Assembly (NCBI GenBank): GCA_036504215.1
Contig: DASXVO010000046.1
Coordinates: forward strand, 1 to 64,000
Direction: 5' to 3'
DNA from: Vicinamibacterales bacterium
GTDB lineage: Bacteria > Acidobacteriota > Vicinamibacteria > Vicinamibacterales > Fen-181
DNA: 64,000 bases
The translations under genes and the position numbers were made by a program. The first letter of the stretch is position 1. Every line of letters starts with the position of its first letter. The notes under the pieces were generated by a model, which searched no databases, was not told the DNA's origin, and saw only the letters and a list, made by a program, of their open reading frames with translations. Shown piece by piece: positions 27,371 through 47,467 of this stretch.

Positions 27371-27407
27371 GAGTCGAAGGGCTCGCCCTGAGCGGAGTCG
27401 AAGGGCT
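27371..27407. repeat. Dispersed repeat, GAGTCGAAGGGCT copies at the TonB gene 3' end
   Basis: GAGTCGAAGGGCT occurs at 27371-27383 and again at 27395-27407, on either side of CGCCCTGAGCG. GCCCT and AGGGC in the unit can pair. The second copy runs into the stop codon of TonB receptor 1. It looks like a REP-type intergenic element; only this one site is seen in the window. Confidence 0.55.
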
Positions 27408-30899: not shown

Positions 30900-33875
30900 C
30901 TAGAACTCGAGCCTCGCGCCAATGCGGAACTGGAACGGCGCCTGAATCTGCGGCGGGTTGCCGCCGAGTACGCTCGTCGTCGGCTGGCCGAAATTCGGAT
31001 TGGCGGATCCGAACGTCGACTCCACCCACGTGTCGTAGCCGAGCACCGTCTTCCGGTTGATCAGGTTGAAGACGTCCATCATCAACACGACGTGACGGGT
31101 CCCGCTCAGCCGCAGCGTGTAGTCGACGTGCGCATTGACATCGGTCTGGAACGGCGCCCGATCCTTGAATCCATCGACCGTCTGAATCCCCGACCCTCGC
31201 GGCCCGGTTGGAATCTCGCCGCCGTTCTGGTAGTTCGGGTTGGGGTTGGCCGCCAGCCCGGTCAGCGGCGCGCCCGAACCGAGGAACACGCCGGCGCCGA
31301 CGTTCAGGCCCATCGGGAACGAGTAGTTGCCGTAGACCTTGATCTGGTGCGGACGGTCGAGCGGCAACGGGCCTTCGCCGAGGCTTCCCAGATAGCGTAC
31401 GTCACCCTTGTAGCCGAACTGAGGAACGCCAATCGCGGTGTAGCTCGGGTCGTTGGTCGGGAAGTCGTAGAGGGACGTGATGCCGGGATCGGACTGCCCG
31501 TTGTCGTCCCGGTAGAAGCCCTCATAGGTACCCCACAGGCGCGACCAGCGATACGACGCCTGCATCGACCAGTTCCTGGAGAACCGGCGGTCGACAGTGA
31601 GCTCCACCGCATCGTAACGATGGACGGGACTCTCGAACGCCGCGCCGAGACCGCCGGCGGTTGTCGTGCTCGGCCCCGGATTGGTCAGCACGTAGTCCAC
31701 GCTCGCGGCTCCAGGAAGCCCGAGATCGGCTGCCACGATCGGGAACGGCTGGACGTCCTCGAGCACCCGCGGGATGGTGCGGTGCACGTAGCGCACGCCA
31801 ACGCTCATGCTCGGCATCAACTGGTGCTCGAACCCCGCGATGAACTCCTGCATGTAGCTCATCTTGACGTTCGGGTCGATGACGTCCGCACCGGCTCCGG
31901 CGATCGAGTAGTGGGTCGCCGTCTGCTGGCCGACGGGACCGGCGAGGGTGCCGTTCGGGATCGGCTGGGTCAGGTTGGCATCGAAGTAGTCCGCGCCGAT
32001 GCCCGCATCTGCCGACAGCGCACGGGCGGCCAGGTCGTTGGGCACCCGCGCGTAGAAGATCCCGTAACTGCCGTAGATCTTGCTGCGGCCGTCACCCACC
32101 ATGTCGTAGGTCACGCCGACTCTCGGAGCCCAGTTCTTGTTCAACTTGAAGTCCTGGACCAGCGTTCCCGACATCGTCTCCTGTTCGTACCGCAGTCCCG
32201 GCTTGATCGTGAGCCGGTTCCCGACCTTCCAGGTGTCTTCAACGAAGAACGCGGCGTAGTTCTGCGTCGTCTTTCTCGCCGTGTTCAGGTTCGCCCTGGT
32301 GACCCGGTAGATCTTCCCGAAGTTGGGATCCGCCAGGATCTGGATCTGCGCGCCGGTCGCCGTCGTGTCACCAACCGGAGTGACGAAGGTCGGGCCGGTG
32401 CGCTGGTTGATCTGGTCGTAATTGAGGTGTTCGAACATCCCGCCGTACCGAATCTGGTGATCGCCGAGGATGTTGGTGGCGGTGGCCTTGTACTGGTAGG
32501 CCTTGCTCTGGTTCCCTGCCTCGTAGCTGCCGATGCCGCCACTCGTGATATTCGGAACCACGGTGCGATCCTGCACTCTCCAGGTGTTGACCGACGGTGT
32601 CTCCTGGATCTGGTTCAACGCGTGTCCGAACGACGCTTCCACCAGGAACCGGGGCGAGATGACGCCGTTGTAGTGGACCGACTGGTTGTGACCACCGTAC
32701 TTCGTGATCTCGCTGAAACCCGATGTCGTCGTCCCCAGCAGGGCGCTGGTGCGCTGCGGCCCGTTCGGGGCGTTCGCCGGGTCGCCGAACACCGAGACGT
32801 CGAGGCGATGATTCGACGTGGCCTGGTACGTGCCCTTGGCCGCGTAGGAATACACGCGGCGCAGGCGATCCAACGGGCCGAGGGCTGCCAGCGGGAAGTC
32901 GAAGTTCACGCCGTCGGTCTTGTTCTGCGGCGCGGTGAGCGTCGTGCGTTCCCAGCTCGGATCGAACGCACCGAAGAAGAAGAGCCGGTCGCGCATCACG
33001 GGACCACCGACCGTGACGCCCGCGTCACTGAGCTCGGTCGAGTCGGTGTTCACCGTGCCGTTGGCCGTCTGCACCTGCGTGAAGTTCCCTTCGAGACGAC
33101 TCGGGCGGGCGTACCCGAACACGCTCCCGGCCAGCTTGTTCGAGCCGCTCTTGGTGATCACGTTGACCACGCCGCCGGTGGACTGGCCGTACTCGGCCTC
33201 GTAGCCGCCCGTCTTCACCTGCACTTCCTGCATGAAGTCGTACGGCGTGCCGTTGCCGAGCGATCCGAAGATGATCGAGTAGGAGCCGAGCGCACCGTAC
33301 CCGCCGTTGGTGATGTTCACACCATCGACGATGTACTGGTTCTCGAGGCCGCTGGCGCCGCTGATCGACGGGTTGGCGGTTCCGACCGACCCACCGGTGC
33401 TCACGCCTGGTGCGATGTACAGCGTGTCGCTGAATCGGCGTCCAATCGGCACACGTTCGAGTAGTTGACTGTCGAGCGCAGCACCGATCGTCGTCGTCGA
33501 GGTGTCGACGACCGGCGTCGTGCCGCTCACGTTGACGGTTTCGTTCAGACCGCCCACCTGCATCGTGAGCGACAGGTCGACCGTCTGGCCCAGGCGCAGC
33601 ATCACCGCGCCCTGCTCAACGGTCTTGAATCCCTGAAGTTCGGCCCGGACCGTGTACTGGCCGGGCGTGAGATACGACAGTTGGTAGCGACCGTCGGCGC
33701 CGGTGACCGCGGTCTTCGCACCTTGCGGACCGGTTGCGACGACGCTCACGCCGGGCACCGGAAGGCCCTGGCCGTCCACGATGCGGCCCGCAATGGTGGC
33801 CGTGGTCTGCGCGAAGAGGGCCGGGGCGCCGGCCATCAGCAGAACTGCTGCTAGCACGAGTGTTCGGGGGCGCAT
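30900..33875 (-). CDS. TonB-dependent outer-membrane receptor, Oar-like, copy 2
   Basis: 991 residues from the ATG of MRPRTLVLAAV, with AAGGAG upstream; a TTG three codons earlier sits directly on the ribosome site and is rejected. Signal peptide about 1-23. CarboxypepD domain at about 25-105 (GRIVDGQGLPVPGVSV), plug with PIGRRFSDTLYIAPGV, YIVDGVNIT and YGQSTGGVVNVITKSG, then barrel ending FQFRIGARLEF. It is the most divergent of the four TonB receptors here and belongs to a subgroup with the GGYEAEYGQSTGG plug motif. Ligand unknown. It has its own terminator, so it is expressed separately from copy 1. Confidence 0.88.
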   Translation of the reverse strand: MRPRTLVLAAVLLMAGAPALFAQTTATIAGRIVDGQGLPVPGVSVVATGPQGAKTAVTGADGRYQLSYLTPGQYTVRAELQGFKTVEQGAVMLRLGQTVDLSLTMQVGGLNETVNVSGTTPVVDTSTTTIGAALDSQLLERVPIGRRFSDTLYIAPGVSTGGSVGTANPSISGASGLENQYIVDGVNITNGGYGALGSYSIIFGSLGNGTPYDFMQEVQVKTGGYEAEYGQSTGGVVNVITKSGSNKLAGSVFGYARPSRLEGNFTQVQTANGTVNTDSTELSDAGVTVGGPVMRDRLFFFGAFDPSWERTTLTAPQNKTDGVNFDFPLAALGPLDRLRRVYSYAAKGTYQATSNHRLDVSVFGDPANAPNGPQRTSALLGTTTSGFSEITKYGGHNQSVHYNGVISPRFLVEASFGHALNQIQETPSVNTWRVQDRTVVPNITSGGIGSYEAGNQSKAYQYKATATNILGDHQIRYGGMFEHLNYDQINQRTGPTFVTPVGDTTATGAQIQILADPNFGKIYRVTRANLNTARKTTQNYAAFFVEDTWKVGNRLTIKPGLRYEQETMSGTLVQDFKLNKNWAPRVGVTYDMVGDGRSKIYGSYGIFYARVPNDLAARALSADAGIGADYFDANLTQPIPNGTLAGPVGQQTATHYSIAGAGADVIDPNVKMSYMQEFIAGFEHQLMPSMSVGVRYVHRTIPRVLEDVQPFPIVAADLGLPGAASVDYVLTNPGPSTTTAGGLGAAFESPVHRYDAVELTVDRRFSRNWSMQASYRWSRLWGTYEGFYRDDNGQSDPGITSLYDFPTNDPSYTAIGVPQFGYKGDVRYLGSLGEGPLPLDRPHQIKVYGNYSFPMGLNVGAGVFLGSGAPLTGLAANPNPNYQNGGEIPTGPRGSGIQTVDGFKDRAPFQTDVNAHVDYTLRLSGTRHVVLMMDVFNLINRKTVLGYDTWVESTFGSANPNFGQPTTSVLGGNPPQIQAPFQFRIGARLEF

Positions 33876-34240
33876 TCTCTCCAACTCCTTGTTTGGTGTC
33901 CGTCGTTGCTCAGTTGAGCATCGAACTCATCACGATCGCACGCGAGGAAGTCCTCGTATCGGTGTGCGTGGAGTTCGCCAGTAGCTTTGCAACCTTCGGA
34001 CCGTTTTGGCGACACCTGGCGTCGATGGAGGCGACCGGTGGCGCAATCGGGCTGAGTGCGGGAAGATAGCAGAATGCGCCTGAAAACGCGCAATTCGTCG
34101 CGGCTGTGCTTGGCCACACCAGGGCTGCGCGGATGAGTTTTCGACGAGGCGCGCGATCCAGCAATCGGGATCGAGGAATCCGAAACCGGAGATCGCGACG
34201 ATAGGTCGCCTGGTCTCGGCGGGCGGTGTGGCCTCGGCGT
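33876..34240. other. Divergent intergenic region, TonB receptor 2 / DmpA-like peptidase
   Basis: 365 bases. On the minus strand 33988-34003 reads CGGTCC-GAAGG-TTGCA, which has GG-N10-GC spacing and a perfect -12 box but a poor -24 box, so it is only a weak sigma-54 candidate for TonB receptor 2. I see no small reading frame or repeat that I can support. Confidence 0.4.
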
Positions 34241-35347
34241 ATGATGTCTCGCATGGTCTCGTCGGCACGAATCACCTCGACGGTAGTTGCGAGCTTCGTC
34301 TGTCTTGCCACAGCGTTGAGCCTCTTCCATATGGACGCAGATCTGTCCGCAACCGCCCCCCAGGTGCCACAGGGCTCGGGCCTCACCGACGTCCCGGGCA
34401 TCAAGGTCGGCCATCACACGCTGACCGAGCGCCTCACCGGCTGCACCGTCGTCCTCGCCGAGGCCGGCGCCGTCGGCGGCGTGGATGTGCGCGGTTCGGC
34501 GCCAGGAACGCGCGAAACGGATCTGCTGAATCCCGTCAACCTCGTCGATCGCGTGAATGCGGTGGTGCTGGCCGGCGGCAGCGCGTTCGGCCTCGACGCT
34601 GCGACGGGCGTCGTCCGGTACCTCGATGAACGCGGCGTGGGGTTTCCGACTCAGTACGGCAAGGTCCCAATCGTCCCTGCGGCGATCCTGTTCGATCTCA
34701 ATGTGGGCGACGCGAAGATCCGGCCAACGGCCGACTGCGGGTACCGCGCCGCCGCGGGCGCGACGACCGGACCTATCGTCGAAGGCAACGTCGGCGCCGG
34801 TGCGGGGGCCACGGTCGGCAAGCTTGCAGGCAATGAGCGAGCGATGAAGGGCGGGATTGGCACCGCCTCGATCACCATGCCGGATGGCCTCATCGTGGCT
34901 GCGCTCGTCGTGGTGAATGCCGCCGGCGACGTGATCGATCCCCTGAATGGAACCGTGATCGCCGGCGCACGCACGCCTGATGGTCAGGGCCTCGCCGATG
35001 CGCGGCAACTGCTGCGGTCCGGCGCCCTCAGTCCGCGCACGCCGCTCGGAGGGAATACCACGATCGGTGTTGTGGCCACCAACGCGTTGCTGACGAAGGC
35101 ACAGGCCACGAAGGTTGCACAGATGGCGCACGACGGCGTGGCGCGCGCGGTCTCGCCCGCCCACACGCCGTTCGACGGCGACACGATCTTCACGCTGGCG
35201 ACCGGCGCGAGGCCCGGCGCGACGGACCTTCTCGTCGTCGGTGCGCTGGCCGCCGAGGTGACATCTCAGGCCATCGTGCGCGCCGTCCGGGCCGCACGGG
35301 GAATCCCGGGATACCCGTGCGCGTCCGACCTCGCGAAGCGGAGGTAG
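34241..35347 (+). CDS. P1-family peptidase (DmpA / NylC-like, self-processing)
   Basis: 368 residues from ATG 34241; GTG 34226 and ATG 34253 are also possible. A hydrophobic N-terminal stretch (about 10-32) suggests export or anchoring. The fold starts at GLTDVPGIKVGHHT. The family cleaves itself before a nucleophilic Thr or Ser: here N272-T273-T274-I-G-V-V is the processing site, as in the NylC/DmpA group. GGSAFGLDAATGVVRYLDERG and the Asn/Gly-rich GNVGAGAGATVGKL are family hallmarks. It should act as an aminopeptidase or amidase on N-terminal residues or beta-peptides; the substrate is not set by sequence. It is followed 12 bases later by the nucleotidyltransferase gene. Confidence 0.85.
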   Translation: MMSRMVSSARITSTVVASFVCLATALSLFHMDADLSATAPQVPQGSGLTDVPGIKVGHHTLTERLTGCTVVLAEAGAVGGVDVRGSAPGTRETDLLNPVNLVDRVNAVVLAGGSAFGLDAATGVVRYLDERGVGFPTQYGKVPIVPAAILFDLNVGDAKIRPTADCGYRAAAGATTGPIVEGNVGAGAGATVGKLAGNERAMKGGIGTASITMPDGLIVAALVVVNAAGDVIDPLNGTVIAGARTPDGQGLADARQLLRSGALSPRTPLGGNTTIGVVATNALLTKAQATKVAQMAHDGVARAVSPAHTPFDGDTIFTLATGARPGATDLLVVGALAAEVTSQAIVRAVRAARGIPGYPCASDLAKRR

Positions 35348-35359
35348 CGGCGGCCTGCC

Positions 35360-36478
35360 ATGAGAGGCGCCTGGCATCCCCTGCTCGTCCGCTGTGCACG
35401 GCTTCGGCCGCGGGCTGAAGACGCGGAAGAGACCGACCGCCTGGCGAAGGCCTGCGACGACTGGGACGACCTCATCCGCCAGGCCGAACTGCACGGCTTG
35501 ACGCCGCTCGTACGCCGGCATCTCGACGCCGCGGATGCGCATCTCCCGAAGCGGGTCGCACGTGCGCTCGGCGCCTGCACGGCGCGGCACCGGCTCACCA
35601 ACGAGGTGCGCTTCCGCGTGCTCGGCCAGATCCTGCGCATCCTCGAATCGGCGCGCATCCCCGTCGTCGTCCTCAAGGGGCCGTCGCTGGCGGCGCTGGT
35701 GTACGGCGACGTCGGTCTGCGTCCGATGCGCGACCTCGATCTCCTGGTGCCGAGACGTGACGCGGATCGCGCGCAGAGCGTCCTCCAGCAGCACGACTTC
35801 GCGATCGTCGAGGAGTGTCGCGGAGCAGTGCCGCTGGATCACCACCTGACGCCGCTGTCCACCGAGAGCGAGGGCGTCCACGTGGTCGTCGAGATCCATC
35901 GGCAGGTTTTCGGCGACATCAACCGGGCGACGCTGGAGCTCGAAGAGACGGCACACGAGGAGTGGCTGACGTTCGACGCCCACGGCATGCGCGCGCGGGC
36001 CCTCGGCCCCGCGCAGATGCTGTGGCACCTCTGCCATCATCTGGTCGATTTGTATCAACCAATCCGCCTGATTTCGGTGGTGGATGTGGTCGCCTCGGCA
36101 GAACGGTTTGCGGAGGTCCTCGACTGGCGCCGGATCGCCAACGACTACCCGGTTGTCGCCGGCACGCTGGCGCTCCTCGACGAGTTGGTGCCGCTGCCTC
36201 CGTCCGTCGCACCGCACGCGCGGGCGAGAAGACCGGGACGGTCGCGCGACGTGGGCGTGGACTACACTGGATGGCCGCGCCGGATCGCCCGCGCCGGCTG
36301 CGCGGGCCGACTGACGGACCGCGTCAGGGACACCCTGCGGCCTCCGGAGTGGTGGCTCCGGCTGTACTATGATGCTGACGTGGCGGCCAGCCGCTGGCGG
36401 CTGATGCTGCGCCACGCCCGCGCCATCTGCGGCGCCGCCGCGCGCCGCGTCAAGGCCCGCGCATCGACTTCGCTATGA
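35360..36478 (+). CDS. Nucleotidyltransferase family protein (PF14907 type)
   Basis: 372 residues. The catalytic core is at about 108-140: VVVLKGPSLAALVYGDVGLRPMRD followed by LDLLVPRRD, with the two aspartates of the D-x-D pair in a G-x-R-x3-D-x-D context. A helical C-terminal half contains MLWHLCHHLVDLYQPIRLI. PF14907 proteins occur next to PqqD and HprK-like genes, including lasso-peptide clusters where the transferase modifies a phosphorylated peptide. Here the stop overlaps the PqqD start by four bases (ATGA), so the two are coupled. It is unlikely to be an MNT-type antitoxin, which is much shorter. Confidence 0.8.
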   Translation: MRGAWHPLLVRCARLRPRAEDAEETDRLAKACDDWDDLIRQAELHGLTPLVRRHLDAADAHLPKRVARALGACTARHRLTNEVRFRVLGQILRILESARIPVVVLKGPSLAALVYGDVGLRPMRDLDLLVPRRDADRAQSVLQQHDFAIVEECRGAVPLDHHLTPLSTESEGVHVVVEIHRQVFGDINRATLELEETAHEEWLTFDAHGMRARALGPAQMLWHLCHHLVDLYQPIRLISVVDVVASAERFAEVLDWRRIANDYPVVAGTLALLDELVPLPPSVAPHARARRPGRSRDVGVDYTGWPRRIARAGCAGRLTDRVRDTLRPPEWWLRLYYDADVAASRWRLMLRHARAICGAAARRVKARASTSL

Positions 36479-36732
36479 ATCATCCACAGCGCGTGAAGGA
36501 CTACCGCATCGAGCAACTCGACGATGAGTTGTTGCTGTATCACCCGGGACGCACGACAACGCTGTACTGCAACGACACAGCAGCGTTGATCTGGCAGTTG
36601 TGCGACGGCACGCGCACGGTTGACGAGATCGTGGACTTGCTGACGGAGCAGTACCCGGAGGAGCCCGTGGCGGAGGACGTGGGGTTGACGCTCGAGGCGT
36701 TCGAGGAGCACGGGGCGATCAGCTACGTCTGA
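36475..36732 (+). CDS. PqqD family protein (RiPP recognition-type winged helix)
   Basis: 85 residues, complete. The PqqD fold is shown by DDELLLYHPGRTTTLYCND, TAALIWQLCDGTRTVDEIVDLL and the final EEHGAISYV. PqqD proteins bind leader peptides for modifying enzymes. The length and the coupling to a nucleotidyltransferase fit the PqqD partner of HprK-related systems. The HprK-like gene itself is 8 kb downstream on the same strand. No precursor peptide, B2 protease or cyclase is seen next to it. Confidence 0.85.
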   Translation: MNHPQRVKDYRIEQLDDELLLYHPGRTTTLYCNDTAALIWQLCDGTRTVDEIVDLLTEQYPEEPVAEDVGLTLEAFEEHGAISYV

Positions 36733-36788
36733 CGGAGGCCGGTGGCTGATGGCCACTCGCCACCAGCCCTTGCCGCGCCGAGAGCCTT

Positions 36789-37295
36789 CTACACCGGCAG
36801 CAGCGTCAGGGAGAAGGTCACCGTCGCCGAGATCGCGCCTCCGTTGGCCGTGGCGACCAGGTGCACGGCCTGCGTCGGCCCGACACCTTTCTGCCGAAGG
36901 GTTGGCACGGCCTGGAGCGCGTGAAACCTTCCAGAATAGGTGCCCGATCCATTGGTGATGCCGGTGACGGACGGGATGATCCCCTGCACGACGTCCACCT
37001 GGATCAGCGCCGCTTCCGGTGAAGACACCGTCACAGAGACCCCGGGAGTTGGCGGCGTAGTGGCCACGACGAACGGCTGCTGGGTCGCACCGGGCGAGAT
37101 CACCGTGGACGCGGTTGGCGTGGTGAACGCCAGCGTGAACGTGCCGGATGACTGCGCGTGGACCGGGATCTCGACGCTATCGACAACGGGACGGGTCCAG
37201 CGCTCGGGCAGCGCGCGCGTGGCCGCCGCACCGCCTGCGATCGTCAGCGCACGCAACAGGTTCCGCCGAGAGACGCTCTTGGCATCTTCGTCCAT
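36789..37295 (-). CDS. Tat-exported protein with WTRPVVDSVEIPVHAQ motif, unknown function
   Basis: 168 residues from the ATG of MDEDAKSV, with AGGAGG eight bases upstream. The twin-arginine signal is SRRNLLRAL followed by a weakly hydrophobic Ala/Gly run. After it comes WTRPVVDSVEIPVHAQ, ending in a likely signal-peptidase site (HAQ). The mature part is about 120 residues, rich in Thr, Ser and Val, with no Cys, and looks like a single Ig-like beta fold (TFTLAFTTPTASTVISPG and AVHLVATANGGAISATV). It lies tail to tail with the PqqD gene. I do not recognise its function; it could be the protein handled by the PqqD/transferase pair, which is only inference. Confidence 0.72.
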   Translation of the reverse strand: MDEDAKSVSRRNLLRALTIAGGAAATRALPERWTRPVVDSVEIPVHAQSSGTFTLAFTTPTASTVISPGATQQPFVVATTPPTPGVSVTVSSPEAALIQVDVVQGIIPSVTGITNGSGTYSGRFHALQAVPTLRQKGVGPTQAVHLVATANGGAISATVTFSLTLLPV

Positions 37296-37322
37296 GGGCA
37301 CGGCCTCCTGGGGTCCAGACGG

Positions 37323-37351
37323 AGTATACACACCTCAGCCGTTGTCCACAA
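37323..37351 (-). promoter_or_regulatory. Sigma-70-type promoter for the Tat-exported protein
   Basis: On the minus strand: TTGTGG, 17 bases, TATACT, about 28 bases before the start codon. The -10 is good and the -35 matches at three positions. Confidence 0.5.
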
Positions 37352-37446
37352 TGACGGGCGAGTCTGGTGTCGCTTCCCTCCTCTCCAGCCGCTGATGTGC
37401 CGATAAGCTGGAAAAAGCCCGGTTGTCCCGCCGGGCGAGACGGGCC

Positions 37447-40400
37447 ATGACTTCACTCGATTCTCGTGCCGCGACCGCGGTTTCCGCCGATGCGCCCCGC
37501 GTTGTCAACCCGATTCTCAAAGATGTCTCTCTGGCGCGCGCGCCGGTGACCTGCCAGAAACTGACGGCGTCACCCCGCGGCCTTGTGTTCCACCGCGCCG
37601 TTCCCCTCGACGTTCCCTTCGGCGCGATCCGCCTGATCGCCGCGTGTCACGACCATCACGCACCCAAGGACGCGCCGGTGCTGCTGCTCTTCGTCCAAGG
37701 GCAGCCCCGCCCATTTCTGGTCTCGGCACTTCACATCGCTTTCCGCGAGTTCTCAGGCGTGCTCGGCGAGACCCTGGCCGTCTCCTTCCGGAACTTCCTG
37801 GCACATCTCGTCCACTCGTGCCCGGGAATCCTCGTCGATCAGGGCACGTGGGCTGTTCTGCACGGCGACGCGGCGTTCGCGCCGCGGCCGCTCGATGTCC
37901 TCGCGACGAGCCTGGCACGGGTGCTCAATGAGGCCGATGCGGTGGCGTCTGGCGACAGTCGGCAGGGCGACAGTCGGCCGCGCGACGGCACCGACATGGC
38001 ACCGGACCAGGCGTCCACGGTCCCGCTGGTATGGAACGCCGGCGATGTGATTCTCGGCTTTTACGAGGTGACGAAGGTCCACCAGTCGGGCGGAATGGGC
38101 TTGGTCTACCGCGTCCGGCACCGGGGCTGGCAGACCGATCTGGCCGTCAAGGCCCCGCGGCCGGAGTTCTTCCGAACCGAGACCGACGTCGCGACGTTCG
38201 AGCGTGAGTGCGAAACCTGGATCAACCTTGGACTCTATCCGCACATCGTGAGCTGCTACTACGTCCGCCGGCTCGGCGGCGTGCCTCGCGTGTTCGCGGA
38301 GTACGTGGATGGCGGCAGCCTCCAGGACTGGATCTCGAGCCGGCGCCTGTACGCGGACGATCCGCATGCGGCCCTGCTGCGGGCGCTCGACCTGGCCATC
38401 CAGTTCGCCTGGGGCCTGCACTTCGCGCACGATCAGGGACTGATCCATCAGGACGTCAAGCCGGGGAATGTGCTCGTCACCACGGCCGGCATCGCCAAGG
38501 TGACGGACTTCGGCCTGGCGCACGCCCGATCGAGCGTCGAGAGGCCTGGCGCCGACTCGCCTGCGGACGTCAGCCTCGTCGCGACCTTCGGCGGCATGAC
38601 GCCGGCCTATTGCTCGCCGGAACAGGCGGCGATGCTCGCGGCACGCCGCGCCGGCACGCCGCGCGACGCGTTGCCACCGTTGACCAGACGCACCGATATC
38701 TGGTCGTGGGCTGTCAGCGTGCTCGAGATGTTCACCGGGGGCGTGACCTGGATGGGCGGCCAGGCAGCGGCGGCCGCGCTCGAGCACTACCTCGAGAACG
38801 GTCCGGACGATTCGAGCCTGCCGCCGATGCCGGAGGCGGTGGCGGAACTGCTCGGGCGGTGCTTCTCGCTCGACCCGACCGGCCGGCCAGCCACGTTGCT
38901 CGACGTGGTGGAGCCCTTGAGGACCGCCTACGCGCACGTGGCCGGACAGCCGTACCCGAGGCGCCGGCCCGAACCCGCCACGATGCTGGCCGACGGGCTG
39001 AACAACCGAGCCGTGTCGTTGCTCGACATCGGCCGGGCCGCTGACGCGGAGCGGCTCTTCGACGAGGCCCTGGCGGCGGATGGGGGACACGTCGAGGCGA
39101 GTTTCAACCGCGCACTAATGCGGTGGCGGGGCGGCCTCGCGACCGATCAGGCAGTCGTCGCCGAGGTGGCCGAGGTCGCAAAGGGCGCGAACGATCCGCG
39201 CGCCGCCGCCGATCTCGTCGGCCTGCTGCACATCGAGAGGCACGACGCCGAGTCCGCGCTCGCGGCGATAGACAGCGTGGCCGGAAGCGCGCCCGGATCG
39301 TCCGACCAGTCGATCCGTCAACGCGCCGAGTCGCTACGCCCTCACGCGGCGCGTGCCCTTCGCGTCATCGAGCCGCTCGCTGCGGCGCTGAGAGCTGTCG
39401 CCGTCAGCGCCGACGGCCGGGTCGTCCTCGGAGGCGGCCTCGATAACATGGTCCACGTGTGGGACGCGGTCTCAGGATCGGTGCTCAGGAGCTTCTTCGG
39501 CCATCAGGCGTGGGTGACGTGCCTCGCCCTGACTGCGGACGGCCGCCTGGCGTTGTCGGGCAGCGTGGACGACACGGTGCGAGTCTGGAACGTGGCGACC
39601 GGCCAGTGCCTGTCTACGCTCGAAGGGCACACGGATGACGTCAGCTCGGTGGCCGTGCAGGCGGCGGGGCGCTGGGGAGTCTCGGGGGCGTACGATCACA
39701 CGGTCCGGGTATGGGAGTTTCCGACCGGCCAGTGCCTCCGGTTGCTCGAGGGGCACACGAACTGGGTGTCGGCCGTCGCGCTCGGCCGCGACAGTCGGAC
39801 CGTCGTATCGGCCAGCTACGATGGCACGCTCCGCGTGTGGGACGCACCGACCGGCGGCTGTCTCCACGTCCTTCAGGGTCATCAGGGCCGCGTGACCACG
39901 GTCGCGGCGTCCGCGGACGCCCGATGGGCGATATCCGGCGGCGCCGACCGCAGCCTGCGCCTCTGGGACGTGCCCAACGGAAAGTGTGTCCGAGTCCTCC
40001 AAGGCCATGCCGGCGAAATCACGTCGGTTGACCTCTCTGCCGACGGCCGTTTCGCACTCAGCGGCAGCGCGGATCACACGGTGCGGCTCTGGGATACGTC
40101 CTCCGGTCGCTGCCTGCGGACGTTCCAGGGGCACGTGCGGGAGATCACCGCCGTGGCGGTCAGCACCGACGCATCGCTCGCCGTGACCGCCAGCGTGGAC
40201 TGCAGCCTCCGGTTGTGGAACACCCGCGGTCTGTGCCACCACCCGCTGCCGGCTCCACCCGCGCTGAGCCGCGTCACATCGGCCGAAGCCTCCCTCGAGG
40301 CGGAGGCTCGCTTCCTGGCGCTCCTTGGCAACGGCCGAGAAGCCCTGTCGGCCGACAGGGCCGACGAGGCGCTGGCGGTGGCCCGCGCCGTGCGCTCGCT

Positions 40401-43200
40401 GCCCGGGCGAAACAGGGACGGTGAGGCACTCGGGCTGTGGACGGATCTCAGCTGTCGCTGCCAACGCGTCGGGCTGAGCGCGGCGTGGTGCGTCCGCGTG
40501 ATGTCCGGCCATACCACCGAGGTCAAGGGCCTTGCCGTGACGCCGGACGGGCGGATGGTCGCCAGCACCGGACCAGAGGGTACGGTGCGCGTCCGCGAAT
40601 TGGCCACCGGCCGCGCGATTCGGACGCTCGAAGGGCACACTCACGGCGTGTCAGCCATTGCCGCCTGCCCTGACGGCCACCACCTCGCCTCGGTCGGCGG
40701 CGACGGCCGACTTTGCCTGTGGGATCTGGACAGCGGTGCGTGCGAGCGCGTCGTCGACGGCTTCGAGCCGAACGGCCAAGGCCTGGCAATCAGTGACGAC
40801 CAACGTTGGCTTCTCCGCGCCAACGGGCCCCGGATCGGCTTGTGGGAATTCTCGACCGGGCGACAGGTGCGAAGCTTCCCGGCCCCTTCCGGGATGCTGA
40901 TGGACAGCGTGATCCTGCTGCCGGACGGCGAACTGGCCGCGGCATCCACGCTCGACTACAAGACGCAAGTGTTCGAGCTGGCGGGTGGCCGGAAGATCGG
41001 CAGCATGGACAACTGCGGGCCGCTGACGGCCAGCCCTGACGGGCGGTTGCTTGCCGCCGTCGGTCTGGACGCGGGCGTCCAGAAGGTGGTCATCTGGGCG
41101 CTGCATTCTCGCACTCAGCAGTTCCTCCTGGGCGGCCATGTCGGGCCCATCACCGCGACGGCGTTTGCGCCAGACAGCCGCTGGCTGTTCACGGCCAGCC
41201 GCGACGGCACGGTGCGCGTGTGGGACCTGTCGACTGGCGCTGCCGCGCGCGTGTTGGAGGGCTTCGTCCATCCGGTCGTAGCGCTCGCGATGGCGCCGGA
41301 TGGCGGCCATCTCGTGATGGGCTGCACCGACGGCAGCGTGCAGGTGTGGGCGCTCGATTGGGAACTGGCCGTACGCCCGCGGTCGAACTGGGATGACGCG
41401 GCGCAGCCACACCTCGAGGCGTTCCTGCGACGCCACCGCGCGCCCGCGGCGGAGTTGCCCCAGGGCAGGGCGCCTTTCGACGAGGAGATCGCGTTGGCGC
41501 TGACGCGACGCGGGGCGCCCGACTGGACGACGGGTGATGTCGACGATCTGATGCGCCGGCTCGGACAGTCGGGTCACGGCCACGTCAGACGGGAGGGTGT
41601 CCTGGCGAAGCTCGTTGCTCTGGCCGCAGGTATGGACGCGGCGGTGCCGGCGTCAGGCTCCGCTCACCCAGACGCGGCGCGGGCGCTGCGAAAGGGCGCG
41701 GACCGGCTGGAATCGGACGTGCTCCCGTTGCTGGCGACGCTTCCCACGGACGGCGGGGACATGTACCAGGCCGGGCAGATGATCGCCGGCCTCTGGCGAG
41801 CGCTGGCGGACACCCTGGAAACGGGCATGGGCGCCGGCGGTCTGCCGCCTTCGGTTCCGGAGATCGCCGTGACCGTCTTCGGCAACACCTCGCAGATTGG
41901 CTCGGTGCTTCGGGCGACGGGCAACTGCCCGCCGCACGTGCTCGAGCACATCGCGAGCGTGCGACGCCTGGCTATCGAGTTGATGCCGGCCGCCTCCCTG
42001 CCGGAGACGACCGTCTTCTACTCCCGGAAGATCCGCGACGCGGCCGACCAGCTCGAAGCCGCGTTCCTCTCGCCCGGACAGCCTCTGCCCACCGCGCCGA
42101 TCGACATGGAGAAGGTGCTGCGCCAACTCGTTGGTGCATTTCGCGAATTCACCGAATGCCTCGCGGGCGGCGTCGATCAGCAGGGGCAGCCGGCCTCGAG
42201 GTTGACGCTCGCGCATCTGCTGGCCGAGATCGTCCGGAACAGCAGGACCGACCATTTCCGCCAGGTCATCGGCGCCTCCTTCGGCGCCAGACTCGTGAAC
42301 ATTTGGGGCACGCTGGGCAACCTCGCGGAACTGGCCGAGTTGATGGAGGCCCAGGTGAGCGCCACCGCGATCGCGCCTGCGGTGCCAGCGGCCGTTCCCC
42401 AGCCGACTCCGCCCGGTCAGCCGTCCGCCGCGCCTGCGCCTCCGGCACCGGCTGCCGTTGGGATCGAGTGTCCGAAATGCGGCGCAACGGGCCAGCAGGG
42501 CGCGGAGTGCCGAAGTTGCGGACTGCTGTTCGCGCGGTACCGTCCCGGTCCGATCCTGAAGCGAGCGGCCGATCGGCTCCGAGCCGCCAGCCGCCAGATC
42601 GCTCGCATGCCGCCCGTGGTCAACGAATTCGCGACGTTCTGGGACACTCTTCCCGATGCAATCGAGACCGGCGTCATGGCGGACGGCGCCCGGGCCACGC
42701 CGTACCTCGTCGGCCTTCTCTTGCGCGACAACGTCGACATGATGGAGGACCGGCTCGTCGAGACGCTCGGAGAGTGCCCGGCGCAGCTCCGGACGCTGAT
42801 GCCAGAGGTCCGCCGGCTGTCGCGCCACATGATGGGAGACCCGCTCGCACCTGCTGCGCGCGCCGCGCTGGCCGAGACGCTGAGCGGAGCGGCGGCGGCG
42901 CTCGAAGCGATCTTCAAACAGCCCGAGCGGCCATTCCCGTTGAACGATCAGGGAATGGACTCGGGCGTGTTTCTGAACTTCTTCGTGATCCTCCTCAAGG
43001 GGTTCCCTGGCCAACTGACCGGCAATACGGAGGCCGAGGTGATTCGTGGCACGGCCGAGGCCGTGCAGAACAGTTGCGGCACGATGCTATCGAACAATGT
43101 GCTCGGCATCGTGATGCACTCCTGCCCGTCGCAGTTCGTGACCGTCTTCAAGGCGGTGAACCTGACGAGGACGGCAGCGCGAATCATTTCTGGCCAATGA
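37447..43200 (+). CDS. Giant Ser/Thr protein kinase with two WD40 blocks, zinc ribbon and duplicated C-terminal domain
   Basis: 1917 residues from ATG 37447; a TTG eight codons earlier is possible. No signal peptide, so cytosolic. Order: an unknown domain at about 30-175; a Hanks-type kinase at about 205-515 with HQSGGMGLVYR (212-222), the Lys of LAVKAPRPE, H334-Q-D336-VKPGN, D354-F-G and SPEQA; TPR-like helices at about 525-600; WD40 block one at about 640-935; helical spacer; WD40 block two at about 1015-1315. After that come two related helical domains (about 1410-1640 and 1705-1917) on either side of the ribbon C1675-P-K-C1678 and C1688-R-S-C1691. HRD is HQD, which need not abolish activity. 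Targets unknown. Confidence 0.85.
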   Translation: MTSLDSRAATAVSADAPRVVNPILKDVSLARAPVTCQKLTASPRGLVFHRAVPLDVPFGAIRLIAACHDHHAPKDAPVLLLFVQGQPRPFLVSALHIAFREFSGVLGETLAVSFRNFLAHLVHSCPGILVDQGTWAVLHGDAAFAPRPLDVLATSLARVLNEADAVASGDSRQGDSRPRDGTDMAPDQASTVPLVWNAGDVILGFYEVTKVHQSGGMGLVYRVRHRGWQTDLAVKAPRPEFFRTETDVATFERECETWINLGLYPHIVSCYYVRRLGGVPRVFAEYVDGGSLQDWISSRRLYADDPHAALLRALDLAIQFAWGLHFAHDQGLIHQDVKPGNVLVTTAGIAKVTDFGLAHARSSVERPGADSPADVSLVATFGGMTPAYCSPEQAAMLAARRAGTPRDALPPLTRRTDIWSWAVSVLEMFTGGVTWMGGQAAAAALEHYLENGPDDSSLPPMPEAVAELLGRCFSLDPTGRPATLLDVVEPLRTAYAHVAGQPYPRRRPEPATMLADGLNNRAVSLLDIGRAADAERLFDEALAADGGHVEASFNRALMRWRGGLATDQAVVAEVAEVAKGANDPRAAADLVGLLHIERHDAESALAAIDSVAGSAPGSSDQSIRQRAESLRPHAARALRVIEPLAAALRAVAVSADGRVVLGGGLDNMVHVWDAVSGSVLRSFFGHQAWVTCLALTADGRLALSGSVDDTVRVWNVATGQCLSTLEGHTDDVSSVAVQAAGRWGVSGAYDHTVRVWEFPTGQCLRLLEGHTNWVSAVALGRDSRTVVSASYDGTLRVWDAPTGGCLHVLQGHQGRVTTVAASADARWAISGGADRSLRLWDVPNGKCVRVLQGHAGEITSVDLSADGRFALSGSADHTVRLWDTSSGRCLRTFQGHVREITAVAVSTDASLAVTASVDCSLRLWNTRGLCHHPLPAPPALSRVTSAEASLEAEARFLALLGNGREALSADRADEALAVARAVRSLPGRNRDGEALGLWTDLSCRCQRVGLSAAWCVRVMSGHTTEVKGLAVTPDGRMVASTGPEGTVRVRELATGRAIRTLEGHTHGVSAIAACPDGHHLASVGGDGRLCLWDLDSGACERVVDGFEPNGQGLAISDDQRWLLRANGPRIGLWEFSTGRQVRSFPAPSGMLMDSVILLPDGELAAASTLDYKTQVFELAGGRKIGSMDNCGPLTASPDGRLLAAVGLDAGVQKVVIWALHSRTQQFLLGGHVGPITATAFAPDSRWLFTASRDGTVRVWDLSTGAAARVLEGFVHPVVALAMAPDGGHLVMGCTDGSVQVWALDWELAVRPRSNWDDAAQPHLEAFLRRHRAPAAELPQGRAPFDEEIALALTRRGAPDWTTGDVDDLMRRLGQSGHGHVRREGVLAKLVALAAGMDAAVPASGSAHPDAARALRKGADRLESDVLPLLATLPTDGGDMYQAGQMIAGLWRALADTLETGMGAGGLPPSVPEIAVTVFGNTSQIGSVLRATGNCPPHVLEHIASVRRLAIELMPAASLPETTVFYSRKIRDAADQLEAAFLSPGQPLPTAPIDMEKVLRQLVGAFREFTECLAGGVDQQGQPASRLTLAHLLAEIVRNSRTDHFRQVIGASFGARLVNIWGTLGNLAELAELMEAQVSATAIAPAVPAAVPQPTPPGQPSAAPAPPAPAAVGIECPKCGATGQQGAECRSCGLLFARYRPGPILKRAADRLRAASRQIARMPPVVNEFATFWDTLPDAIETGVMADGARATPYLVGLLLRDNVDMMEDRLVETLGECPAQLRTLMPEVRRLSRHMMGDPLAPAARAALAETLSGAAAALEAIFKQPERPFPLNDQGMDSGVFLNFFVILLKGFPGQLTGNTEAEVIRGTAEAVQNSCGTMLSNNVLGIVMHSCPSQFVTVFKAVNLTRTAARIISGQ

Positions 43201-44653
43201 GTCCGGGGGCGCCGCCCTGGTGCACCAGGGCGATCGCCCCGTCGCGCGCGTGCACCATGACGACCGTCCCCGGCGGGCAGCGCCCCGCCAGGATGCTGCG
43301 CCCGAGAGGCTGGACGATCAGCCGGTCGATCGTTCGCTCCATCTGGCGGGCGCCCATGGCCGGGTCGAACCCTCGCTCCATCAGCACGTCGAACGCGTCG
43401 GGCGAAAGCGACAGCGTCACCTGGCGATCGGCCAGTTGTGCTGACACGCCATCGAGAATCTTCCCGATGATGCGCCGCACGGTCTCTGGTCCGAGCGGCC
43501 TGAAGCACACGATCCGCTGAATCCGATTGATCAGTTCGGGCCGGAGCGCAGCCGCCACGGCTCCGCGGTAACGGCGCTCGTACTCGGCCCACTGCTCGTC
43601 GACAGCCGTCGCGCGCGCAGGTCGCGGCGGCGGACCCGGCTGGGAGACGATCCCGATGGAGATCCCCTCGGGAGGCGCGTCCCGCCCGGCGCCGAGGTTC
43701 GACGTGAGGATGATCACCGTCTCGCCGAACGCCACGTGCCGGCCGCGACTGTCGGTCAGGCGCCCATCGTCGAAGATCTGGAGGAAGAGGTCGAACACCT
43801 TCGGGTGCGTTTTCTCGATCTCGTCGAACAGGACGACCGAATACGGGTGCGTCCGGACCGCATCGGTCAACTGCCCGCCCTCTTCGTGGCCGACGTAGCC
43901 GGGCGGCGCGCCGATCAGTTTCAGGCTGGGCGATTCTTCCGCGTATTCCGACATGTCGATCCGGATCAGCCGGTCCTCTTCCTCGAACAGGAACTGCGCG
44001 AGCGCCTTGGCGAGTTCCGTCTTACCGGTGCCGGTCGGACCGAGGAAGAGGTCCTCCATCTGGAGCAGGCGTTCGCCTTCGGAGAGCGAGAGCCGATCGA
44101 GCGGCACGCGGCATCGCTCCGCAATCACCGACGCCACCTCCTCGAGGCCGACCGTGGCGCCGCCGTGCCGGTCGTCACGGGCCGCACCCGGCCCGAACCT
44201 GGCCGTCGGAAGCATCACGCGTGAACATGCCTGATCGAGGATGTCGATGGCCTTGTCGGGCAACCGCATGTCGGGCAGGTATCGAATGGAGAGATCGACT
44301 GCCCGTCCGATGGCATCCGTCGAGATCGTCACGCGGTGATGCGCCTCGAACCCTGGCTTGAGGGCCTCGAGGATCGCGACGGCCTGGTCGCGCGATGGCT
44401 CCTCGACCCAGACCGGTTGGAACCGCCGCTCGAGCGCGCCGTCCTTCTCGATGTAGCGCCGGTACTCTGTCGTCGTGGTCGCCCCGATCACGCGGATGGC
44501 GCGGCGGGCCAGCGCCGGCTTGAGCAGGTTCGCCGCGTCCATGGCGCAGCCGCCGACGGCTTCCGCTTCCGCGAAGACCTCGCGCGTGCGCCGGCTGCGG
44601 TGGCCGGTGAAGAGCCGGCCGCTGTCCGTCGAGCGGCCCTCTGATTGCCACAA
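43184..44653 (-). pseudogene. Decayed ClpA/ClpB/ClpC-type AAA+ ATPase remnant
   Basis: A 489-codon frame convergent with and overlapping the kinase gene by 17 bases. It begins inside the first ATPase domain: DAANLLKPALARRAIRVIGA and IEKDGALERRFQPVWVEEPS are seen, but the N-terminal domain, first Walker A and Walker B are missing. There is no ClpB-type coiled-coil insert. The second ATPase domain has GPTGTGKTELAKALA, VVLFDEIEKTHP and SNLGAGRD and runs to a normal end. Just before its Walker A, LLQMED joins straight to LFLGPTG, so about 40 residues normally present (the VIGQDEAV region) are lost. It is likely non-functional as a disaggregase. In the 203 bases upstream I find no coding sequence I can support. 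Confidence 0.75.
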
Positions 44654-44856
44654 GGGTCACGGTGCTCGCCACATCAGCCTCCGCCATCAGTACCCACGGC
44701 GGCTCGCGGGCGTCAAGGCCGGCACGACCACGATCGATCGCGGGGCGTCGAGGCCGTATCGGTACTCGAAGTCTGCGGGAGCACGCGGCGTCGAGACGGA
44801 TGGAGACGCGAGGGACTGGCGGTCCCTGCCGACGAACCCGTATCATTCCGGGCAGG

Positions 44857-45678
44857 ATGAAGGCTGTTCTCTCCTTTGCCGGCAGCGCGGTGGAGGTCTG
44901 CGCCCACGGCCCGCGGGCCGTGGCGCTGATGGATTTCCTGTTCCACCAGGTGCCGCGTGATCCCGGGGCGAAGCCGCACGCCAGGTTCGAACTGTCGGAG
45001 GCCGTGGGCGGTCTCTCGCTGTCGATCGACGATGCCGTCTGCTTCGAGGGCGCGGATGACGGGACGGCTGGCAGCGTGTTCGTTGGCGAGGTGATGTACC
45101 AGATCGCCTGCCGAAGCCGTGGGGGGTTGCTCTTCCACGCGGCCGCGCTGGCCCACCACGGTCAAAGCGTCCTCCTGCCCGGCAAGTCCCGAAGCGGAAA
45201 GACGACGCTCGTCGCGTGGCTTGCGGCGAAGGGTTTCGATTACCTCACCGACGAGATGGTCTTCGTGCCTTCCGGCGGAACGGCCATCGACGCGTTCAGC
45301 CGACCGCTCCAGCTCCGACGTGCGTCGCGCCCGGTGATCGAGAACCTGATCGGCCCACTGCCGGCCGAGGCCGTTCAGGTGGGTTCGGCCTTCGATCTCA
45401 TCCTGCCGGCCGCACTTCGGTCGACCGTCGGCATCGGTCGATCTGATCTCGCGCTCATCGTCTTTCCGCAGTACGAGGCGGCATCGCCCGGTGAGCTGAT
45501 CCGGCTGTCGCCCGCGCAAGCCGGTCTTCACCTGATGGAGGGGCTCATTAACGCTCGCAACCTGCGCGCGCACGGCTTTCCGGAGGTGGCGGCTCTCGCC
45601 CGCCAGGTTCCAGCGTACCGCGCCGCGTATTCGAGCTTCAGCCAGGTGGAGGGCGAACTGCTCTGCCTGCTGCCCTGA
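44857..45678 (+). CDS. HPr kinase-related protein (HprK-rel type)
   Basis: 273 residues from the ATG of MKAVLSFAGS with GGCAGG directly before it. The P-loop is L-P-GKSRSGKTT at 107-117, followed by the acidic pair in YLTDEMVFV (D132, E133), as in the C-terminal domain of HPr kinases. The N-terminal HPr kinase domain is absent, and the N-terminal 85 residues are typical of the HprK-related family found with PqqD and a nucleotidyltransferase. It would be an ATP-dependent kinase of a small protein or peptide, in the cytosol. Those two partners lie 8 kb upstream on the same strand, beyond the giant kinase. Confidence 0.82.
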   Translation: MKAVLSFAGSAVEVCAHGPRAVALMDFLFHQVPRDPGAKPHARFELSEAVGGLSLSIDDAVCFEGADDGTAGSVFVGEVMYQIACRSRGGLLFHAAALAHHGQSVLLPGKSRSGKTTLVAWLAAKGFDYLTDEMVFVPSGGTAIDAFSRPLQLRRASRPVIENLIGPLPAEAVQVGSAFDLILPAALRSTVGIGRSDLALIVFPQYEAASPGELIRLSPAQAGLHLMEGLINARNLRAHGFPEVAALARQVPAYRAAYSSFSQVEGELLCLLP

Positions 45679-45800: not shown

Positions 45801-46022
45801 ATGATGCCTGTAGAAGCAGCCCGCGCCACTCAGACGGTCGCAAAGCGTTTCCGGCGCCGCGACGCCTCCCGTGAACAAGGCGACAAACGGGAAGCCAGGC
45901 TCCGAGGCGCGAGCCAGACCTTCGCGCGGTGCGGCTTCTTCAATGCCCGGGTGGCCGATATCGCGCGGGCGGCCGGCGTAGCGTCAGGGACCGCCTACCT
46001 CATACGTCCGGAACGAGGATGA
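45801..46022 (+). pseudogene. Truncated TetR-family regulator, DNA-binding part only
   Basis: About 73 codons. KREARLRGASQTFARCGFF and NARVADIARAAGVASGTAYL match the TetR helix-turn-helix, but the frame leaves the family right at GTAYL, where YFKSKD should follow, and ends IRPERG-stop. The whole ligand-binding domain is gone. The stop overlaps the start of the next hydrolase (ATGA), so a deletion seems to have joined the two. A free HTH is unlikely to dimerise, as TetR dimerises through the lost domain. Confidence 0.7.
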
Positions 46023-46801
46023 AGGCGATCGGATCGGGGCCTCCGCTCGTGCTGGTGCCCGGCGTCCAGGGCCGCTGGGAGTGGATGCGGCCGGCTGTGG
46101 ACGCGCTCGCGCGGCACTTCCGGGTCATCACCTTCTCGCTCGTCGGTGAACGCCGGAGCGGCATGGCGCTGGACGAGGCGGTCGGCTTCGACAGCCACGT
46201 CGATCAACTCGATGGAATCCTCGCGCAGGCTGGAGTCGAGCGCACGCTGCTCTGCGGCGTGTCCTTCGGAGGCTTGATCGCCCTGCGCTACGCGGCGGTT
46301 CGTCCCGAGCGCGTGGCGGGGCTCGTCCTCGTATCCACACCGGGGCCGGGCTGGAAGCCGACCGAGCGGCAGCAGGCGTACGTCCACGCGCCTCGGACGT
46401 CGGTCATCAAGTTCGTCGGGGGCGCGCCTGGACGGTTGTGGCGGGAAATCCACGCGGCGCTTCCCGGACCCGCCGAACGGTGGCGGACCGCTGCCGGATA
46501 CCTCGCCGCGATCCTGTCCGCGCCCGCTTCCGGGGTTCGAATGGCGAGACGCGTGCAACTGGTCGCGAATTGCGACCTTCGCGCCGACGCCGCGTCGATC
46601 GCGGTCCCGACGCTCGTCGTGACCGGGGAACCGGAACTCGACCGCGTGGTTCCTGTGGCCGGCACCCGCGAGTACCTGGGGCTCATCCCCGGCGCGGTGG
46701 GCCGCACGCTGGAGCACACCGGCCACATCGGCCTGATTACGAAGCCGGAGCTGTTCGCGGCGGTTCTCCACGACTTTTCCGTCTCAACGCGGAGCCGTTG
46801 A
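46019..46801 (+). CDS. Alpha/beta hydrolase
   Basis: 260 residues. The first strand is PPLVLVPGVQGRWEWM. The nucleophile elbow is GVSFGG, the acid is probably the Asp of TGEPELDRVVP and the histidine is in EHTGHIGLI, so the triad is complete. No signal peptide. The start ATG overlaps the stop of the TetR remnant. The next gene, three bases on, is also an alpha/beta hydrolase, so the two form an operon. The substrate cannot be told from sequence. Confidence 0.83.
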   Translation: MKAIGSGPPLVLVPGVQGRWEWMRPAVDALARHFRVITFSLVGERRSGMALDEAVGFDSHVDQLDGILAQAGVERTLLCGVSFGGLIALRYAAVRPERVAGLVLVSTPGPGWKPTERQQAYVHAPRTSVIKFVGGAPGRLWREIHAALPGPAERWRTAAGYLAAILSAPASGVRMARRVQLVANCDLRADAASIAVPTLVVTGEPELDRVVPVAGTREYLGLIPGAVGRTLEHTGHIGLITKPELFAAVLHDFSVSTRSR

Positions 46802-46804
46802 ACC

Positions 46805-47467
46805 ATGGTTCATCACATCCCCGGCCCGAGTGGCCGGCTCGAGGCGCTCGTCGACGATCCGTCGGCGCTCTGCACCACCGGCACGCCCGGCGCGAGCGAT
46901 CCGTTGCGGCCCCCTCGCGCAGTGGTGGTCATCGCGCACCCGCATCCGCTTCACGGCGGCACGATGCACACAAAGATCGTCTTCCAGGTGGCCAAGGCGT
47001 TCTGTCGGCTCGGATGCGCGGTGCTACGGTTCAATTTCCGCGGTGTCGGACTGAGCGATGGCACGTTTGGGGAAGGCGCCGGCGAGATCGAGGACTTCAA
47101 CGCAGCCGTTGATTTCGCGACCGCGCGATACCCGGGAATCGAAGCCTGGGCCGCCGGAGCGTCGTTCGGATCGTGGGTGGCGATGACCGCCGGCGCCAAA
47201 GACGAACGCATCAAGACGCTGATCGGCCTCGCGCTGCCGGCGAACCTCTACGACTTTTCAGCCGCCGCGCGGTCACCCAAGCCCAAGTTCGTGATCCACG
47301 GCGAGCACGACGCGATCTGCCCGCTTCGAGCGGTGCGCGCGATGTACGCGACGGCCGTCGAACCGAAGGAACTCGTCGTGATCGAAGCAGCCAATCATCT
47401 GTTCGACGGACGCCTGCACGAAGTCGCGGAAGCGATCGAAGACCTGCTGGCGCCCGCATCGTCCTGA
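46805..47467 (+). CDS. Alpha/beta hydrolase, COG2945 type
   Basis: 220 residues. VVVIAHPHPLHGGTMHTKIV is the hallmark of the COG2945 group. Nucleophile elbow GASFGSW, acid in HGEHDAICP, histidine in EAANHLFDGR; the triad is complete. Cytosolic, no signal. It follows the other hydrolase by three bases. The family is poorly characterised, and proposals include esterase or thioesterase-like roles. Confidence 0.85.
   Translation: MVHHIPGPSGRLEALVDDPSALCTTGTPGASDPLRPPRAVVVIAHPHPLHGGTMHTKIVFQVAKAFCRLGCAVLRFNFRGVGLSDGTFGEGAGEIEDFNAAVDFATARYPGIEAWAAGASFGSWVAMTAGAKDERIKTLIGLALPANLYDFSAAARSPKPKFVIHGEHDAICPLRAVRAMYATAVEPKELVVIEAANHLFDGRLHEVAEAIEDLLAPASS

Follow-up and report, generated by a model that had tools for sequence, protein, structure and literature searches.

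Relation to described peptide-modifying systems

The locus analysed here lies within a 64,000-nucleotide stretch of a Vicinamibacterales genome (contig DASXVO010000046.1, positions 1 to 64,000; hereafter the window) and comprises genes for a nucleotidyltransferase, a PqqD-like protein, an HprK-like kinase and a protein predicted to be exported by twin-arginine translocation (Tat). The closest described systems are those of the linear polyphosphorylated peptides (LPPs) and of the lasso peptides paeninodin and pseudomycoidin. According to the LPP study (Popov et al. 2026, PMC13381572), the components of such a system are a recognition element of ribosomally synthesized and post-translationally modified peptides (RRE and RiPP, respectively), an HprK-like kinase, an NTP transferase, an SpI-like peptidase and an MsbA-like pump. 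The leader motif is given there as YxxPxVLxHQxIxFETxxS, RREs are described to bind [Y/W]xxPx[L/V/I/F/A], Ser3 of the core is phosphorylated by the kinase LppK once cleavage at T-1 has taken place, and LPPs are stated to be confined to Bacillota (PMC13381572). In the lasso peptides a Ser is likewise phosphorylated by an HprK-like kinase, the WxxP leader is bound by the RRE B1, and for pseudomycoidin a nucleotidyltransferase is reported to add hexoses onto the phosphate (PMC8498205).

In the window, an NTP_transf_5 nucleotidyltransferase (35360..36478, plus strand; PF14907, 139 bits), the candidate glycosyl or nucleotidyl transferase to phosphate, is followed by a PqqD-like RRE (36475..36732, plus strand; PF05402, 55 bits), which is the only PqqD in the genome and the candidate leader-binding protein; the two genes are coupled, as the start of the second overlaps the stop of the first in the sequence ATGA. 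The minus-strand gene of the 168-residue Tat protein (36789..37295), the candidate substrate, converges on the PqqD. The 273-residue HprK-like kinase (44857..45678, plus strand), with its P-loop PGKSRSGKT at 45178-45204 and its best start at ATG 44857 rather than at GTG 44662, is located 8,130 bp from the PqqD, measured from domain edge to domain edge. We consider it likely, with a probability of roughly 0.7, that these four genes constitute one system for modification of an exported protein, a Tat counterpart of the LPP systems in which RRE binding and phosphorylation and glycosylation of residue 3 would precede export.

The resemblance to the LPP systems is evident in several respects. First, a discrete RRE, an HprK-like kinase and an NTP transferase are present in both. 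Next, the [Y/W]xxPxV motif is shared, and the residue assigned to the kinase as its target, here a candidate, is the third one behind a cut of signal-peptidase type, which here is predicted; with the Trp taken as position 0, the Pro and Val stand at 3 and 5, the cut falls after 14 and the Ser or Thr is at 17, compared with a cut after 15 and a Ser at 18 in LPPs. Finally, the substrates have a conserved N-terminus and a variable C-terminus. There are also differences: the aromatic residue is Trp here and Tyr in LPPs, the target may be Ser or Thr, the leader contains a Tat signal peptide and an AxA cut, the passengers are mostly protein-sized and reach up to 20 per assembly, glycosyltransferase fusions occur, and the hosts are Proteobacteria, Desulfobulbaceae and Acidobacteria. 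Neither an SpI-like peptidase nor an MsbA-like exporter turned up in the Pfam scan, which covered part of the 20 recurrent neighbour clusters and part of the genes of each locus and gave no Pfam match for some clusters. Compared to paeninodin and pseudomycoidin, in which the modified Ser is at the C-terminus of a peptide, the proposed target here belongs to the N-terminal region of a protein that is exported, and no macrolactam cyclase or B2 transglutaminase-like peptidase appeared among the Pfam hits of that part of the locus genes that was scanned.

The Tat leader and its linkage to the enzymes

The Tat protein carries the leader sequence SRRNLLRALTIAGGAAATRALPERWTRPVVDSVEIPVHAQSS, in which the TIGR01409 Tat signal scores above cut-off, the leader profile matches with an E value of 1.9e-19, and a hydrophobic stretch and a signal-peptidase site are present, from which export is predicted. 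The leader motif (37146..37199, minus strand) consists of WTRPVVDSVEIPVHA followed by QSS; it extends from Trp33, the first residue of the WxxPxV docking motif, to Ser50, with the signal peptidase I cut predicted after Ala47, so that Gln48 would be the mature N-terminus and Ser50 mature residue 3. An IUPAC DNA pattern of the motif, in which the codons for W, P, P, H, A and Q were set, some other residues were restricted by class and residue 3 was left free, was run over 84,980 genomes and found 98 stretches, 97 of which gave motif proteins, 105 in total from 40 assemblies that are mainly Gammaproteobacteria and Desulfobulbaceae; the remaining stretch (L201) yielded none under the reading used. 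When the window protein is included, an RR pair is found within 42 residues upstream of the motif in 103 of 106 proteins, and residue 3 past the predicted cut is Ser or Thr in every one of them (53 each), with residue 2 and those from 4 on being variable; the 106 rows are related, hence not independent, and the assemblies are mostly metagenome-assembled genomes. In evenly drawn Gammaproteobacteria, leaders found by profile have Ser or Thr at residue 3 in 22 of 22 cases, a hand count that leaves out two false hits without the motif and shares three proteins with the 106, and in these leaders the Ser internal to the motif varies and is often Ala.

The leader is linked to a particular lineage of the enzymes. 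TIGR04352 matches 38 of the 40 motif assemblies, 35 of them at an E value of 2e-12 or better. A strong leader was present in six of 274 Gammaproteobacteria, and an HprK scoring 60-130 bits, a band picked after the data were seen, was found in 5/6 leader genomes versus 5/268 others (p 1.2e-7); with a broader threshold (E up to about 3e-15) the counts are 5/6 and 33/268 (p 2e-4). In a tree of 85 HprK rows, a 33-row clade supported by a Shimodaira-Hasegawa-like approximate likelihood ratio test (SH-aLRT) value of 97 contains leader-bearing genomes and the window only; all 38 leaderless acidobacterial rows, all XrtA-type rows, which had been reduced to 10 ahead of the tree, and an additional HprK copy that one of the leader genomes has fall outside. 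The nucleotidyltransferase tree (89 rows) similarly has a 22-row clade of leader-linked genes only, the window included (SH-aLRT 100), with 60 leaderless acidobacterial rows outside it. Since both the HprK and the nucleotidyltransferase of the window are in the leader-linked clades, the distant HprK belongs with the transferase, the PqqD and the Tat protein. A contiguous arrangement is found in G118 of the same order, where nucleotidyltransferase, PqqD, HprK and Tat genes adjoin on one strand, with the leader WTRPVVDTIVIPLHAQSS and a different, Gly-rich passenger, and in two other Acidobacteriota (G532 and G567) the nucleotidyltransferase, PqqD and HprK adjoin one another, with the leader gene at a distance of roughly 4.6 kb. 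Thiohalocapsa marina DSM 19078, a culturable species with a single leader, likewise shows leader, nucleotidyltransferase, HprK and PqqD matches inside 5 kb. For G567, the open reading frame (ORF) between leader and trio (L384:9331-13107) encodes 1258 residues with four different glycosyltransferase-type domains.

Glycosyltransferases are associated with the leader genes also elsewhere. HprK-GT2 fusions, some with additional GT25, GT9-like or FkbM parts, were found with a GT2 profile in eight leader-linked loci, five of them Pfam-shown, and in a ninth the GT2 protein is fused to PqqD and not to HprK; the same profile matches one locus in the acidobacterial set centred on the nucleotidyltransferase. 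Further PqqD fusions near leader genes involve GT2-GT25, galactosyltransferase, DXD sugar-transferase or polysaccharide pyruvyltransferase domains (L139, L144, L151, L156, L199 and L336). Among 37 downstream same-strand neighbours, taken from the 105 leader genes only where an ORF of at least 220 residues was nearby, 10 have GT2, 5 have PqqD and 4 have GT25. Fusions of GT2 to a type I phosphodiesterase-like part are located directly 3′ of leader genes in L218 (1533-4844) and L219 (1750-5148).

The abundance of glycan genes around the motif would also be expected if the leader were merely a long Tat signal peptide, with a role for W..PVV in membrane insertion or in quality control and with a small molecule or polysaccharide as what the trio acts on, and the position of the motif ahead of the AxA site, where it would be lost upon export, fits this explanation as well. 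Such a role would, however, leave unexplained the invariant Ser or Thr past the cut, the co-occurrence with one HprK clade and the RRE-glycosyltransferase fusions beside leader genes, and we regard it as unlikely. A still less probable alternative is that the product of the trio is a small RiPP of the lasso or LPP type whose short precursor was overlooked, the Tat protein being there by chance. The enzyme families are indeed those of paeninodin, pseudomycoidin and LPP, but the Tat leader itself has the RRE motif with a Ser or Thr as residue 3, its occurrence follows the enzyme clades, and the passengers are mostly protein-sized, with a median of 127 residues after the motif; other short ORFs were not searched for systematically. 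The initial annotation had rightly hinted at a precursor near PqqD, and the candidate that emerges is the Tat protein which it already listed.

The passengers themselves are diverse. The 40 assemblies contain 178 leader proteins, with 14 assemblies having one and 26 having two to 20, and a Pfam scan of 10 leader proteins gave one marginal Gly-rich hit and otherwise no families. When the whole Tat protein was used as query, matches beyond G118 were mostly noise, because the passengers differ. A single-sequence model of the window passenger was poor, with a predicted local distance difference test (pLDDT) score of 45, and was not used. Tandem leader genes occur in L128, L158, L165 and L347, some of them with passengers that are nearly pure poly-Thr.

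The enzyme identities agree with the assigned roles in part by family and in part by predicted structure. The same families form the HprK-related kinase A and HPr-rel-A PqqD set, and the window proteins match both of its models below cut-off, with 88.8 bits to TIGR04352 (cut-off 200) and 25.3 bits to TIGR04353 (cut-off 35); the window HprK is in a clade separate from the high-scoring HprK-related kinase A type, which we take to be tied to exosortase A. A model of the HprK on 33 aligned homologues has a pLDDT of 94.2, its fold matches PEPCK and HprK/P and the invariant residues are kept, which identifies a P-loop kinase domain of the HprK/PEPCK fold. For the PqqD, the best single-sequence match in the PDB is LppB with leader (9x8z, E 0.004), and in that alignment Asn33 and Asp70 of LppB map to Asn33 and Asp68 of the window protein, both nearly invariant across 34 leader-linked PqqDs; a 34-row profile places PqqC/D chains above 9x8z. 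For the transferase and the HprK-like protein, PDB searches from the single sequence brought up nothing relevant.

Several observations weigh against a dedicated modification system of this kind. No HprK was found by TIGR04352 in two of the 40 motif assemblies, G316 (1.7 Mb), one of the six leader genomes in the even sample, has no good HprK, and three leader-linked nucleotidyltransferases are outside the clade. A match to a trio family in the same piece, at most 8 kb, was present in just 18 of the 98 motif stretches. Only two of 149 relatives (G000 and G118) have a strong leader and 86 have an NTP_transf_5 match, so that most acidobacterial trios must have other targets. According to the LPP study (PMC13381572), LppK is inactive on an S3T substrate, whereas one leader in two has Thr here (Ser in the window), and deletion of LppN was without effect in the heterologous host used there. 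Lastly, the window block contains no glycosyltransferase. When nine more loci, five of them leaderless with mid-range HprKs, were searched for leaders under relaxed conditions, G316's own leader was the only one found, and the leader profile gave one weak match, in G338 (E 0.0017). Leaderless loci with nucleotidyltransferase, PqqD and HprK are numerous in the order of the window and form several deep clades (L032-L091), and a second HprK and nucleotidyltransferase subtype, with an HprK of about 400 residues, falls outside the leader clade and occurs both in leader-bearing and in leaderless genomes (L351, L358 and L365).

The accessory block and the kinase-WD40 gene

All genes listed by the initial annotation are present by Pfam and TIGR matches, and the spacing of about 8 kb on the same strand, the coupling of transferase and PqqD and the length of 1917 residues for the Ser/Thr kinase with WD40 repeats (37447..43200, plus strand, ATG start 37447) agree with it; the Tat protein and the Clp gene are between the parts of the trio as described, on the minus strand in both cases, which had not been stated. 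The PqqD and HprK genes are on the same strand and at most 300 bp apart in 33 of 39 loci, the exceptions being the window, L320, L337, L353, L354 and L358. Together with the placement of the window HprK in the leader-linked clade, this supports the earlier suggestion that an insertion split an operon.

An empty site, which the initial annotation had named beforehand, together with loci never linking the kinase to the trio, as evidence against its proposal, does exist. Since six relatives (G001-G005 and G010) keep in order the flanking S58 peptidase (34226..35347, plus strand) and, on the other side, one or both alpha/beta hydrolases of a pair (45929..47467, plus strand) and do not have the block, the segment 35348-45928 is, by this comparison, an accessory block, and entry of the kinase gene with the trio or later would both be compatible. 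The distance from the S58 gene to the second hydrolase is 86 bp in G004, 230 bp in G003 and 362 bp in G002, other ORFs occupy a 1.1-4.8 kb gap between the flanks in G005, G010 and G001, and no S58 gene was seen in the piece read for G006 and G018. The S58 peptidase was considered as a fourth gene of the system and rejected, as relatives that do not have the block still keep it at this site, which makes it a flank.

The giant kinase looks like an unrelated passenger of the block. Neither its N-terminal nor its C-terminal part has a match in the 98 motif stretches or in leader-linked loci, and among 59 relatives no real match to the C-terminal part was found, the two weak ones being in its own genome (E 3e-4) and in G002 (E 6e-4), so that the kinase was rejected as a member of the system. 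The other suggestion of the initial annotation, an enlarged system with two kinases in which the kinase-WD40 protein would, for example, sense or regulate the trio, is for the same reason very improbable, as its position between the trio parts on the same strand and the Ser/Thr kinase genes near five of 60 leaderless acidobacterial nucleotidyltransferase loci are offset by the finding that those five match neither terminal part of it and by its lack of linkage to the trio elsewhere.

The remaining gene of the block is a ClpB/ClpA-like remnant (43184..44653, minus strand), read as another bystander, which keeps the lid, second AAA and D2-small domains and is missing its N-terminal half; it is not a recent copy, as it is only 43-47% identical to three full-length ClpB/ClpA-like genes of the same genome. 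Its truncated end adjoins the HprK start and may mark a rearrangement breakpoint. On the left, TonB-dependent receptor-like genes with a carboxypeptidase regulatory domain adjoin the block (27406-30348 and 30900-33884, minus strand).

Proposed modification of exported proteins

The linkage, clades, motif, invariant residue, fusions and empty site are all read directly from the sequences, and on this basis the trio probably phosphorylates and then glycosylates a fixed spot near the start of the Tat protein before export. In the proposed course, the PqqD-like RRE would bind WxxPxV in the extended Tat signal peptide, and the HprK-like kinase would phosphorylate the invariant Ser or Thr, residue 3 after the predicted cut AHA/Q-x-[S/T]. 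NTP_transf_5 would then add a sugar to that phosphate, chemistry which is proposed by analogy only, because of the pseudomycoidin precedent. Many relatives have glycosyltransferases, part of them as fusions with the RRE or the kinase, that may extend this sugar. The Tat machinery, a mover of folded proteins, would export the already modified protein, and an ordinary signal peptidase would remove the leader. In the window, the HprK would have been parted from its partners by the inserted kinase-WD40 gene and the Clp remnant.

A literature search that left most subscription journals and preprints outside its reach found no description of the Tat-linked form. On the whole, we lean towards a general sequence-addressed phosphoglycosylation in Gram-negatives, in which many unrelated exported proteins may have a portable Tat-signal tag that brings an RRE-guided kinase, a nucleotidyltransferase and glycosyltransferases to their residue 3, with RiPP machinery turned into proteome-level glycosylation and surface labelling. 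The analysis names a candidate target, with the exact residue predicted, for a trio that had no known substrate in these bacteria. If the proposal is true, RRE-guided modification would no longer be confined to small peptides but would reach sets of exported proteins, the use of Tat would be explained, since modification in the cytosol precedes export, and the leader would represent a movable tag for protein glycosylation.

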